Source: Pseudomonas mosselii (lineage in GTDB: Bacteria > Pseudomonadota > Gammaproteobacteria > Pseudomonadales > Pseudomonadaceae). Taken from it: 64,000 nt of DNA. The notes below the pieces were generated by a model. That model saw nothing but the letters and a program-made list of their open reading frames with translations, was not told the origin of the DNA and made no database searches. Of the stretch, positions 26,729-30,437 are shown in pieces (within the stretch, counting starts at the first letter, position 1; the number at the start of each line of letters is the position of its first letter). The position numbers and the translations under genes are program-made. Location of the stretch: contig NZ_CP081966.1 in NCBI RefSeq assembly GCF_019823065.1, positions 496,001 to 560,000 of the forward strand, given 5' to 3'.

Positions 26729-27455
26729 AGTCCGTGACCTGCTGAAAGTCTTCGACACCCGGGGCCAGGTGGTGCGCGCGGTGGACAACGTCACCACCCA
26801 GGTCGCCAAGGGCGAGGTGGTGGTGGTGCTGGGGCCGTCGGGCTCGGGCAAGTCGACCTTCCTGCGCTGCCTGAACGGCCTGGAGCATTTCGACGAGGGC
26901 CATGTGTCCATCGGCGGTTTGCAGCTGGACGACCCGAAGACCGATATCAACGCCTATCGCCGAGAAGTCGGCATGGTGTTCCAGCATTTCAACCTGTTCC
27001 CGCACATGACCGTGCTGGAGAACCTGTGCCTGGCGCAGAAGGTGGTGCGCAAGCGCAACAAGGCCGAGCGCGAGGCCAAGGCCCGGGCGTTGCTGGAAAA
27101 GGTCGGTATCGCGCAGAAGGCCAACGAGTACCCGTCGCGGCTCTCCGGTGGCCAGCAGCAGCGGGTGGCCATCGCCCGGGCCCTGGCGATGGACCCGAAG
27201 GTGATGCTGTTCGACGAACCGACCTCGGCGCTCGATCCGGAAATGGTCGGGGAGGTGCTGGATGTGATGAAGACCCTTGCCCAGGAAGGCATGACCATGG
27301 TCTGCGTGACGCACGAGATGGGCTTTGCCCGGGAAGTGGCGGATCGGGTGTTGTTCTTTGACCACGGGAAGTTGCTGGAAGATTCGCCGCCGCAGGAATT
27401 CTTTGCCGCGCCGAAGGATTTGCGGGCCCAGGCGTTCTTGCGGCAAGTTTTGTGA
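26721..27455 (+). CDS. Amino-acid ABC transporter, ATP-binding protein
   Basis: 244-aa ATPase of the polar amino-acid uptake family. Walker [11 protein letters not shown]-loop MVFQHFNLF, signature LSGGQQQR, Walker B VMLFDEPT and the switch histidine in CVTHEMGFA are all intact. The GTG at 26721 is chosen because GGAGG lies 11 nt before it; a TTG at 26712 would be only 2 nt from that site. It overlaps the permease gene by 8 nt and ends the transporter operon. Confidence 0.95.
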
Positions 27456-27507
27456 TTGTGTTTAGACCTGCGTAAACCGTGGGTGCAATGTATGTGATCA
27501 AAACTGT

Positions 27508-27542
27508 TCAGGCCTCTTGCTATATATTGGCGAGAGGCCTGA
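27508..27542. terminator. Hairpin after ABC transporter operon
   Basis: Inverted repeat TCAGGCCTCT-N15-AGAGGCCTGA about 50 nt after the ATPase stop. There is no T-run directly after it, so it may be a terminator or an mRNA 3'-end stabiliser. Confidence 0.6.
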
Positions 27543-27584
27543 CTGTCGAAATACCACCACCTTCCAATCAAAGAATGCTCATTT

Positions 27585-27650
27585 CTTGATCTTGATCTTG
27601 ATCTTGATCTTGATCTTGATCTTGATCTTGATCTTGATCTTGATCTTGCT
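27585..27650. repeat. CTTGAT hexanucleotide array
   Basis: Ten perfect head-to-tail CTTGAT units and one degenerate CTTGCT. It lies outside the left structured element by about 35 bp and mirrors the GCCAAA array on the far side. Confidence 0.97.
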
Positions 27651-27683
27651 TCTAAGTGCGCGATAGTTCAGACGCCGCTAATT

Positions 27684-27938
27684 GCGACTTCAGGAGGCCG
27701 AGCGGAGTTCTTGCGGAGGGAGGTGACGGGCATGGATGCCCGTCAAGCGCTGCGCCCCAGGATGGGGCGTTCAGCGCGGTCCTCCCGGGAGCAAGAACGG
27801 AGCGAGGGGACCCCGGAGCGAAGCGTAGGGGCCGTATGAATGGAGCCAGCGGTTTTTGCCTACTTTTGCCCAAGAGCAAAAGTAGGTCGCCGTAAAGGCG
27901 AAAAGGTGACTATGCGTCGATATCGCAAATGAATGCGC
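27684..27938 (+). repeat. Structured repeat element, left copy
   Basis: About 255 bp, the inverted counterpart of 28034-28305. It folds on paper into a three-way junction. The closing stem is GTTCTTGC+GGGAGG (27707-27723) with CCTCCC+GCAAGAAC (27781-27798). Hairpin P2 is GACGGGCAT/ATGCCCGTC (27725-27744). Hairpin P3 is GCGCTG-CGCCCC/GGGGCG-TT-CAGCGC (27747-27777). A further 11-bp hairpin, CCTACTTTTGC/GCAAAAGTAGG, lies at 27859-27886. No protein is encoded. Stems are conserved in the right copy by paired changes. Confidence 0.9.
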
Positions 27939-27962
27939 ATATAACTTTCAAAACACACTCTC

Positions 27963-28004
27963 TCAAAGTCAAAGTCAAAGTCAAAGTCAAAGTCAAAGTC
28001 AAAG
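27963..28004. repeat. TCAAAG hexanucleotide array
   Basis: Seven perfect TCAAAG units between the two inverted structured elements, close to the symmetry centre of the block. Confidence 0.97.
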
Positions 28005-28033
28005 ACGGTCGGCGTCGGTTTCTATTGTTGTAA

Positions 28034-28305
28034 GCGCATTCATTTACGATATCGACGCATAGTCACCTTTTCGCCCTTACGGCGAGTCACTTTTTGTCAA
28101 ACGCCCGGAGCGCCGGCCGGACAAAAGTAACCAAAAAACGCTGCGCTCCATTCATCCGGCCCTCCGCTGCGCTCCGGGTCCCCTCACTCCGGCCTTGCTC
28201 CCGGGAGGACCGCGCTGCAGGGCCCATCCTGGGCCCCAGCGCTTGACGGGCATCCATGCCCGTCACCTCCCTCCGCAAGGCCTGCGTTCGGCCTCCTGAA
28301 GTCGC
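28034..28305 (-). repeat. Structured repeat element, right inverted copy
   Basis: About 272 bp, in opposite orientation to 27684-27938. The same junction can be drawn (plus-strand coordinates): closing stem GGCCTTGC (28191-28198) with GCAAGGCC (28275-28282), plus GGGAGG/CCTCCC; P3 GCGCTG-CA-GGGCCC/GGGCCC-CAGCGC (28212-28242); P2 GACGGGCAT/ATGCCCGTC (28245-28264), identical to the left copy. The distal hairpin is kept with different bases and a larger loop (28086-28131). Confidence 0.9.
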
Positions 28306-28372
28306 GAAGGTACGGGCGGCGCCTGGGCTGACGCAGCTGTCGCTAGTGGGCTGTGGTGTTAATCTTCTGATC

Positions 28373-28447
28373 GCCAAAGCCAAAGCCAAAGCCAAAGCCA
28401 AAGCCAAAGCCAAAGCCAAAGCCAAAGCCAAAGCCAAAGCCAAAGCC
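28373..28447. repeat. GCCAAA hexanucleotide array
   Basis: Twelve perfect GCCAAA units plus a final GCC, outside the right structured element by about 65 bp and ending about 45 bp from the chemoreceptor stop codon. The complementary strand reads TTTGGC. Confidence 0.97.
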
Positions 28448-28493
28448 GTCGGTCTGGTTTCAGGTCCTGGCGATCTGGGCGCGCCTGCAAGGC

Positions 28494-30437
28494 TTAGAGA
28501 TTGAACCTTCCCACCATGCCCCGCAACTGCTGCCCCAACTGCTCCAACTCCCCACTCGAAACCGCAGTCTGTTCACTGGCCGCCCGCGTCTGTTCCGAAA
28601 CATCACGTACATTGATCACGTTTCGGTTGATCTGCTCGGCCACCACGCTCTGCTGCTCACTGGCCGTGGCAATCTGCTGGTTCATCCCCTGGATCGTCGA
28701 CACCGTCTCGGTAATCTGCCCCAGCGCAGCGCCAGCCTTGCGGCTGAGTTCGACGCTTTGCCCGGTCAGGCGCTTGCTGTCGTCCAGAAGGCCGGTCACC
28801 TCGTCGGTGCCGCGGTGCAGGCTGTCGATCAGCAGCTCGATCTCTTCGGTCGACTGCTGCGTGCGCTGGGCCAGGCCGCGCACCTCGTCGGCCACCACGG
28901 CGAAACCGCGCCCGGCCTCGCCGGCCCGGGCTGCCTCGATGGCGGCGTTGAGCGCCAGCAGGTTGGTCTGCTCGGACACCGACTTGATCACATCGAGAAT
29001 CGAACCGATACGCTGGCTTTCACCGGCCAGGTGACCCATGGCCGTGAGGCAGTGGTCCATCTGCCTCGCCAACTGCTCGATGCGGGCAATCGCCTCGGCC
29101 ACCACCTGATCACCCAGCTGTGCCTGGCGGTCGGCGGTGGTGGCCGCCTGGGAGGCCTGCTCGGCATTTTGCGCGACCTCCTGCACCGTGGCGCTCATCT
29201 GGTTCATGGCCGTGGCCACCTGGTCGGTCTCCTCGCGCTGCTGGCCGATGCGCTCGCGGGTGTCCACGCTGGCGCCGGCCAGCGCCGTCGCGGCTCTGGA
29301 CAGTTGGCCGACACCCTGGTCGATGCCGCCGAGCAGCTCGCGCAGGCTCAAGGTCATCTCGCGCATGCTGGCCTGCAGCTGCCCCATCTCGTCGCGGCGC
29401 TGCACCGTCTGTACCTGGCTGAGGTCGCCACGGGCGATACGCGCGGCCTGGGCCAGCACCTGGCGCAGGGGCTGGGTGACCTGCCGGGTGATCAGCCAGG
29501 CAGCGAGGATGCCGAACACCAGTGCTAGCACAGCCACGCTGGTCAGCAGCGAACGGTCGGCCAGGGCCTCGTTGTCGCGCTGCTCGACTTTGCGCTCGCT
29601 CAGTTCAACGCTTACGGTCTGCAGCTCGTCACCCATTTTCTCCATGCCGTCCTGCAACTGCTCGACCTTGAGCGCGGCCTCGCGATATTGGTGCAGGACG
29701 TCGCGGTAGCGGTCCAGTTCCACCTGTGGGCGCTGGGTCAATGTGCCGGGCAGTTCCAGCGCGGTGATTGCCCGCAGCAACTGGCCAAGGCTGGCATTCG
29801 CCGCCTGCAGCGCGTCATCGCCCATGCTGGCAAAGCTGTCCCGGGGTGAGAAGGCATAGGCTGGCACCAGGCTTTGCTGGCTGGCGGACTCGATATGGCG
29901 GCCCAGAGTGTCCATGAGACCGACCACGCTGCTCTGCAAGCCGTCGCCCGACAGCTTCAGCAGGGCTTGGGTCTGCAGTTCGTCGATCACGGTTTCGAGC
30001 ACGCCAGACTGCGCCTGCATCGCCGCGTGCAAGCCTTCGCGGCTGTCCACGGTACTTTGTAAGGTGGCGAAGTCGCCTTTCAGGCGCTGCAGCAACTGCA
30101 GCTTCTGGCTCAGCATCTGTCGCGACGAATCGAGGCCGCTGCGTTGCTGCAGCAGGGTCAGGCGGTCGTGCAACTGTTCCAGGATGGTCGCGATGCGTGT
30201 CCTGCTGACGTCGTCGGCGAGTACCCGGTAGGTGATGCGCTCGGCGCGCAGGTCACGGGTCAGATCGTTGAGTTGGCCGATGTCGCTCAGTTGTTCCGAG
30301 CGCTCGATGGCGCCGTCCAGCGCACGCCAGCCGCTGAGTGTGGTGGCCAGGGTGAGCAGCAGCACCACGGCGAAACCCAGAGTGAGCTTGAGCCCGACGC
30401 CGAGGTTGCCGAGTTGGCGGTCAAGGTATCCGAACAT
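28494..30437 (-). CDS. Methyl-accepting chemotaxis protein, HBM sensor
   Basis: 647-aa chemoreceptor. TM1 is at about residues 14-36. An all-helical periplasmic domain of roughly 250 aa of the helical bimodular (HBM) type follows, then TM2 at about 290-312, HAMP and a signalling domain with the tip [19 protein letters not shown]64 and R67 in [11 protein letters not shown] align with the membrane-distal ligand arginines of the adjacent McpQ/McpS-like receptor, but the RGY arginine of the second helical module is absent, so its ligand may differ. ATG at 30437 begins [15 protein letters not shown]. It lies downstream of the second receptor gene on the same strand, separated by two hairpins. Confidence 0.93.

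Follow-up and report, generated by a model that had tools for sequence, protein, structure and literature searches.

The mirrored pair at 27684-28305 of the window, a stretch of 64,000 nt from Pseudomonas mosselii (contig NZ_CP081966.1, positions 496,001 to 560,000), is a copy of a dispersed repeat. The repeat is evidently non-coding, and its unit consists of two divergent TwoAYGGAY-type elements in inverted orientation. It is read here, with a probability of roughly 0.55, as a mobile inverted-pair repeat carrying predicted RsmA/CsrA-binding RNA hairpins. The RNA core of the element is already known. The fold P1-P6 is maintained by compensatory changes, and at the two sites compared the unit is gained or lost in the manner of a MITE or REPIN.

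The mirrored pair and its TwoAYGGAY core

The two inverted copies proposed in a sequence-only reading, termed A and B, are real. The arms 27684-27813 and 28176-28305 (130 nt) are 91% complementary, the arms 27878-27954 and 28018-28094 (77 nt) 86%. The inner end of the right copy reaches 28018 instead of 28034. Copy B is 82% identical to copy A across positions 1-262. The closing stems and the P3 stems with an AGGAT loop are present in both copies as that reading had quoted them. P3 is CGCCCC-AGGAT-GGGGCG in copy A and GGGCCC-AGGAT-GGGCCC in copy B. The closing stem of copy B is GGCCTTGC/GCAAGGCC (on the plus strand, GCAAGGCC at 28275-28282 and GGCCTTGC at 28191-28198). Features are listed in Table 1.

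Table 1. Features of the tail-to-tail pair, with positions in the window
Feature	Position	Strand	Basis
A-type element, head P1-P3 and tail P4-P6	27684..27954	+	inverted arms, BLAST copies, fold
B-type element, tail-to-tail with A	28018..28305	-	inverted arms, fold, identity to A
RF01731 TwoAYGGAY core, copy A	27722..27781	+	40.6 bits, E 7.6e-5 (gathering 43)
RF01731 TwoAYGGAY core, copy B	28208..28267	-	38.1 bits, E 2.8e-4 (gathering 43)
P1 5' strand GTTCTTGC, copy A	27707..27714	+	sequence; covarying helix; partner 27791-27798
P1 3' strand GCAAGAAC, copy A	27791..27798	+	sequence
P2 hairpin, copy A; loop AUGGAU 27732-27737, C-G closing	27724..27745	+	covarying helix
P3 hairpin, copy A	27753..27769	+	fold, covarying helix; lower stem 27747-27752 with 27772-27777
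P4 hairpin, copy A; sequence variable	27811..27831	+	covarying helix
P5 hairpin, copy A; CCTACTTTTGC/GCAAAAGTAGG	27859..27886	+	covarying helix
P6 hairpin, copy A; TCGCC/GGCGA	27887..27901	+	covarying helix
P2 hairpin, copy B; loop AUGGAU	28244..28265	-	sequence
P3 hairpin, copy B	28220..28236	-	sequence, fold
(TCTTGA)n array, head side of A	27584..27649	.	sequence; precedes the element in P. soli (L254) too
(AAAGTC)n array between both tails	27963..28005	.	found in 6/6 aligned tail-to-tail loci
(AAAGCC)n array, head side of B	28373..28447	.	sequence

Tandem arrays with units of 6 bp, sometimes 7 bp, flank many heads and tails of the element copies. A 118-aa ORF at 28087-28443 (-) translates (AAAGCC)n into Ala-Leu repeats before it enters the element; loci of element plus array may yield false gene calls. 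A hairpin, TCAGGCCTCTTGC/GCGAGAGGCCTGA, follows the ABC gene at 27508-27542 and is also present in P. soli (L254). It is probably the gene's own terminator.

The suspected relation to a known Pseudomonas repeat family can be named as TwoAYGGAY (RF01731, clan CL00106). At the gathering cut-offs (43 bits for RF01731) no Rfam model matches in the window; in E-value mode both heads match, each just under the gathering score. Across the P. mosselii genome, 35 matches were obtained at E <= 1 from the 150 of 300 first-look candidates scored. Two sister copies lie above gathering (49.2 and 43.7 bits), the other 33 below. All 35 matches fall inside element copies detected independently by BLAST, and they cover model positions 47-111 only, which correspond to P2-P3. 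Since neither window copy passes gathering, family membership rests on the aligned sister copies. Both window copies display the hallmark of the family, two adjacent hairpins of the AYGGAY type on a common closing stem, with AUGGAU in P2 and AGGAU in P3; P3 of both copies is without the Y/N letter. Judged by sequence, the window copies are classed as TwoAYGGAY-type RNA elements. A MIR1919 match over the tail-to-tail palindrome was rejected as spurious (E 0.0012; 29.3 bits versus 85 needed).

Covariation of the fold, strand and transcription

Folded singly, both copies beat 200/200 dinucleotide shuffles (z -5.40 for A and -5.38 for B). Copies A and B were aligned with the best RF01731 match from each of 29 other Pseudomonas genomes (n=31); 31 sampled genomes besides P. 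mosselii had a match, and two of these, G019 and G048, were left out. All 31 sequences follow one plan: P1 encloses two hairpins, P2 and P3, whose loops carry A(N)GGA, and the tail hairpins P4 to P6 come next. Of the 52 pairs in the consensus fold, 38 show compensatory changes. After removal of pairs 177-188 and 178-187, both-sided changes were counted in 38/50 pairs, and 95.8% of 1533 cells could pair, versus 77.3% after shuffling. Double-change cells numbered 269, versus 72.8 +/- 7.4 in shuffled alignments (0/500 shuffles as high). Slid registers gave 31-47 such cells, a control over which the fold is favoured, as it was derived from the same alignment. The paired changes first noticed between the two copies are thus general across the 31 sequences, and the selection on folded DNA or RNA deduced from them is upheld by covariation exceeding both the shuffled and the slid-register controls.

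A decayed coding sequence or a chance inverted repeat is extremely improbable. Low-complexity ORFs do cross the arrays (28087-28443), as a decayed gene might leave, but the pairs co-vary across 31 sequences, which refutes this explanation. Loop letters stay while stem letters swap, and an identical fold recurs between unrelated flanks, as in the units of genome G023.

The tail P4-P6 is absent from the Rfam model yet covaries in the 31-sequence alignment. Among 14 loci from other gammaproteobacterial genomes, the motif pair was present in 12 and not found by search in two. P5 and P6 were recognized by eye in 8/12 of these loci and were absent by eye in 4/12 (L275, L276, L278, L279). The conserved unit therefore appears often to extend past the Rfam match. 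Six B copies in P. mosselii have an A-G mismatch in P1, five of them together with an IS110-type IS, so some copies are no longer intact.

The strand was addressed by comparing G-U with A-C cells. In a fold prediction that forbids G-U, P1 contains 31 G-U versus 0 A-C cells, which are not independent of each other. All helices with >=85% Watson-Crick cells together contain 43 versus 15; by pair, 15 lean to G-U and seven to A-C. No G-U excess occurs in P2 (3 versus 3 A-C) or P3 (1 versus 6 A-C), perhaps owing to misalignment. With G-U allowed in the fold, P5 has 26 G-U versus 0 A-C. The strand argument hence rests on P1, together with P5 with G-U allowed. It lends moderate support to an action of the GGA-bearing strand as RNA. 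In vitro, Rsm proteins also bind AnGGA hairpins formed by single-stranded DNA (PMC9928087), so the loop motif is no proof of RNA.

A simple consensus scan of 27400-28600 found no sigma-70-like promoter (0.4 expected by chance). With no evident promoter, read-through into 3' ends is the likeliest transcript source. RsmW provides a precedent for an RsmA-binding RNA derived from a 3'-UTR (PMC4950607). Terminator-like sites number three, versus 1.6 +/- 1.2 by chance. Two of these consist of the antisense strand of P6 with the T run of P5 behind it: the site at 28070-28086 (+) is reached by left-to-right transcripts after A, the site at 27901-27887 (-) by right-to-left transcripts after B. These weak sites could end read-through transcripts. 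A tail-to-tail pair read through could, as an alternative, form one long A-B duplex.

The antisense P6 with its T run also bears on an unlikely explanation, in which structure alone matters and the pair is a bidirectional transcription barrier or an mRNA 3'-end stabiliser between genes. Both copies have strong stems, and the window pair lies between convergent genes. So do 4/4 own loci that are without an IS neighbour and have both flanking ORFs within 300 bp (ORF heuristic). However, 8/9 G023 units lie between same-direction genes, the excess of terminator-like sites over chance is weak, and the conservation of the GGA loops amid changing stems is left unexplained. A barrier role could accompany the preferred reading of a mobile RsmA/CsrA-docking repeat, with the partner ending each element's transcript.

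Copies, spread and mobility

BLAST of the element in its own genome gave 52 matches, itself included. About nineteen intergenic copies of the repeat are present, 16 inverted pairs and three with a headless partner. Of the 35 heads, 32 lie in the 16 inverted pairs and three face a partner without a head. Ten pairs are head-to-head, six tail-to-tail and none direct, and 16/16 are heterotypic, combining one A closing stem with one B closing stem. Genome G023 carries nine head-to-head units of the same two types by eye, G063 six tail-to-tail pairs and one single head; direct neighbouring heads occur elsewhere (G010, G045, G059). From these arrangements it is concluded that the halves mostly spread as fixed couples. 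A copies differ by arrangement, mostly in P2, which reads GGCC in 8/10 head-to-head and GGGC in 6/6 tail-to-tail pairs, so the two arrangements look like separate lineages. A circular intermediate linking head-to-head and tail-to-tail units was dropped on account of these P2 differences. Many head-to-head units hold a REP-like palindrome pair between their halves. In G045, four tandem 134-bp REP-like units lie between two heads (L336:650-1130), each carrying CACATGGATG, a further RsmA-site-like loop.

RF01731 was found at E <= 0.001 in at least 32 of 59 sampled Pseudomonas genomes (30 above gathering) and at E <= 1e-4 in at least 13 of 185 sampled Gammaproteobacteria genomes; both samples include the P. 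mosselii genome. None of 14 control genomes had a match. Per genome, the best candidates only were scored (at most 39 in the genus and 14 in the class sample), and copy counts are lower bounds. The 27/59 genus genomes without a match among the best candidates scored may still carry copies. Inverted pairs also occur outside the genus (G242, G170). Contig CAJYNG010000026.1 (L124), which bears the label uncultured Stenotrophomonas, shares 99.4% identity with the P. mosselii genome over 3.3 kb; it was probably mis-binned and belongs to Pseudomonas.

The ABC gene was detected, at the cut-off applied, in 19 of 20 named relatives. At the window site, 16/20 have both convergent flanking genes (ABC, MCP) and no element in the fetched stretch, while RIT623 has the ABC gene and neither the MCP gene nor the element in the fetched stretch. 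P. soli carries the element at this very position, behind the same flanking sequence; in P. peradeniyensis it lies some 1.1 kb farther along. A second locus, L222, was compared in nine genomes. Three of these are cleanly empty, the flank matches lying 92, 113 and 159 bp apart. In two the element directly adjoins both genes, in one the element is accompanied by a 1.4-kb insert, and in the remaining three the locus is cut off by a contig end or its parts are not joinable. The idea of a mobile structured repeat is borne out by this presence and absence at orthologous sites and by the 52 BLAST matches. Some sites are old, as shown by a 79% match between the L215 flank and an element locus of P. 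reidholzensis. Near 5374161 of the P. mosselii genome (L231), a 144-bp stretch with pair remnants stands where P. monteilii (L161) has about 613 bp; pairs are thus also lost by deletion.

In its short non-coding unit, terminal inverted repeats and polymorphism at orthologous sites, the repeat resembles a MITE; these terminal repeats were read in units of G023 and not in the tail-to-tail unit of the window. It is conceivable, although clearly less probable than the preferred reading, that a MITE- or REPIN-like repeat is all there is. The fold would then serve its own movement through single-stranded DNA ends and a transposase in trans, the GGA loops would be recognition letters of that enzyme, and RsmA would be irrelevant. 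Consistent with this are the presence/absence polymorphism and the sharp outer ends of the inverted paired units in G023 (nine units aligned). The outer-end pattern (<=2 mismatches) occurs 39, 112 and 17 times in three genomes, versus 0 for the reversed control, and the heterotypic halves of 16/16 own pairs resemble a left and a right end. Against it, no autonomous copy was recognized among twelve fetched units, with long ORFs scanned in three 2-kb units of G058, and no target duplication was identified. Head-to-head and tail-to-tail units both exist, so that no single terminus defines the unit, and the asymmetry of G-U over A-C in P1 favours RNA.

An IS110-family IS (>=99% identical) interrupts P5 at one fixed point in eight P. 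mosselii copies, of which six are B and two are A (L212, L216, L217, L220, L224, L226, L227, L229; example L014:1527-2690 (-)). Given this identical insertion point, the IS probably targets the P5 hairpin. The 387-aa ORF in P5 is its transposase (PF01548, PF02371), and beside several tails lies a 415-aa ORF of the Mutator type (PF00872). Seven P. mosselii loci carry a Mutator-type IS, for the most part within tails or close to them (L212, L218, L220, L224, L226, L227, L232). At L220 the IS110-family IS is itself split by one. Relatives have other insertions inside the element (L121, L254), and the elements thus act as landing pads for IS. A Pfam scan of long ORFs detected rve-type transposase genes in the 2-kb G058 units (L332, L333, L334). 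L332 and L334 are units in different places, and in both a 1.3-kb rve-type IS (99.7% identical) is inserted beside P5 at one and the same position. This would fit amplification of a unit that already contained the IS, or site specificity of the IS. L333 has another IS in the spacer. The rve-type genes are interpreted as inserted IS, one of which was copied along with its unit; they may drive movement of the element. A resident gene driving the unit is unsupported, as the ORFs are IS110-family, Mutator-type and rve-type transposases, the last being less firmly dismissed.

Predicted RsmA/CsrA docking and significance

Loops were tallied in 287 aligned, non-independent and partly truncated copies: the 31 aligned sequences and 256 others from the P. 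mosselii genome, 120 named stretches and five sampled genomes. GGA is intact in 277/282 P2 loops and 278/283 P3 loops with letters. The 287 copies contain 14 loop variants in P2, 21 in P3 and 71 in P4. At N, P2 and P3 have any of T, G, A and C or no letter at all, and the position following GGA is variable too. The loop-closing pair is C-G in 31/31 sequences of the alignment for P2 and for P3; the second pair is mostly G-C in P2 and C-G in P3. Both hairpins have the form of a CsrA/RsmA site, in which an A(N)GGAX loop sits on a stem with a closing C-G pair.

High-affinity RsmE sites are described as ANGGAX loops directly on a stem, with N and X free (PMC4005645). According to the same source, RsmZ stem-loops have a C-G closing pair, N is missing in weaker 5-nt loops, and the next pair is U-A in three of four stem-loops and G-C in one. 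The survival of GGA amid varying neighbours and stems fits this published RsmE/CsrA binding rule, as would be expected of docking sites. By that rule the window P3 loops, lacking N, are the weaker form. The second pair here, mostly G-C/C-G, differs from the mostly U-A pair of RsmZ. RsmX/RsmY/RsmZ/CsrB-type sRNAs share the paired GGA hairpin loops, the closing C-G and the free N/X. They are dedicated sRNA genes, rsmY and rsmZ being activated by GacA (PMC4950607), whereas the element is a dispersed repeat without an evident promoter. The P. mosselii genome encodes three CsrA-family proteins. CsrA is present in 13/13 sampled class genomes with RF01731 and in 159/185 overall, so the co-occurrence is uninformative.

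In the mechanism proposed, the GGA-bearing strand would work as RNA, with read-through into 3' untranslated regions as the likeliest origin of the transcript. Each half would fold into an RNA of about 240 nt displaying the P2 and P3 loops. These A(N)GGAX loops on C-G-closed stems would together give an RsmA/CsrA dimer two sites. Each element would then provide an RsmA site locally, in a 3'-UTR, and the roughly 35 heads with their roughly 70 hairpins may in sum constitute a decoy pool against the Rsm/Csr regulator. A bolder version, put forward tentatively, is a selfish, self-dispersing RNA sponge. It would be MITE-like, with RsmA/CsrA-docking RNA as sole cargo and inseparable A+B couples. Each insertion would place decoys at the 3' end of a gene next to it, and copy number would set the strain's Gac/Rsm threshold.

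Among known repeats, REPINs/BIMEs and the R-families R178 and R200 (Silby et al., 2009) are likewise intergenic, inverted paired and strain-variable. The element is far longer than a REP and has a multi-stem covarying fold. R178, which is 101 bp long and contains inverted repeats of 11 bp, could correspond to the tail, and R200, 320 bp long with 47 copies in SBW25, could correspond to the whole element (Silby et al., 2009). Compared with TwoAYGGAY as described, the element is a high-copy, inverted, heterotypic and mobile repeat, and its conserved tail P4-P6 is additional to the Rfam model. No description of a high-copy heterotypic inverted couple, of the tail domain or of mobility was found in the available parts of the TwoAYGGAY/RF01731 literature, nor of the repeat under other wordings in literature listings.

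TwoAYGGAY was listed in 2010, without an assigned function, as probably RNA and probably not cis-regulatory (Weinberg et al.; PMC2864571). In 2014 it was matched to the CsrA motif twice and proposed as a CsrA-binding RNA (Gardner and colleagues; PMC4333381). A fuller Rfam model including P4-P6 is suggested, and TwoAYGGAY annotations may count repeats rather than single sRNA genes. Should TwoAYGGAY prove to be a mobile repeat of high copy number in roughly half the Pseudomonas genomes sampled, laboratory strains would allow the question to be tested, and Rsm/Csr decoy capacity could differ between strains through transposition.
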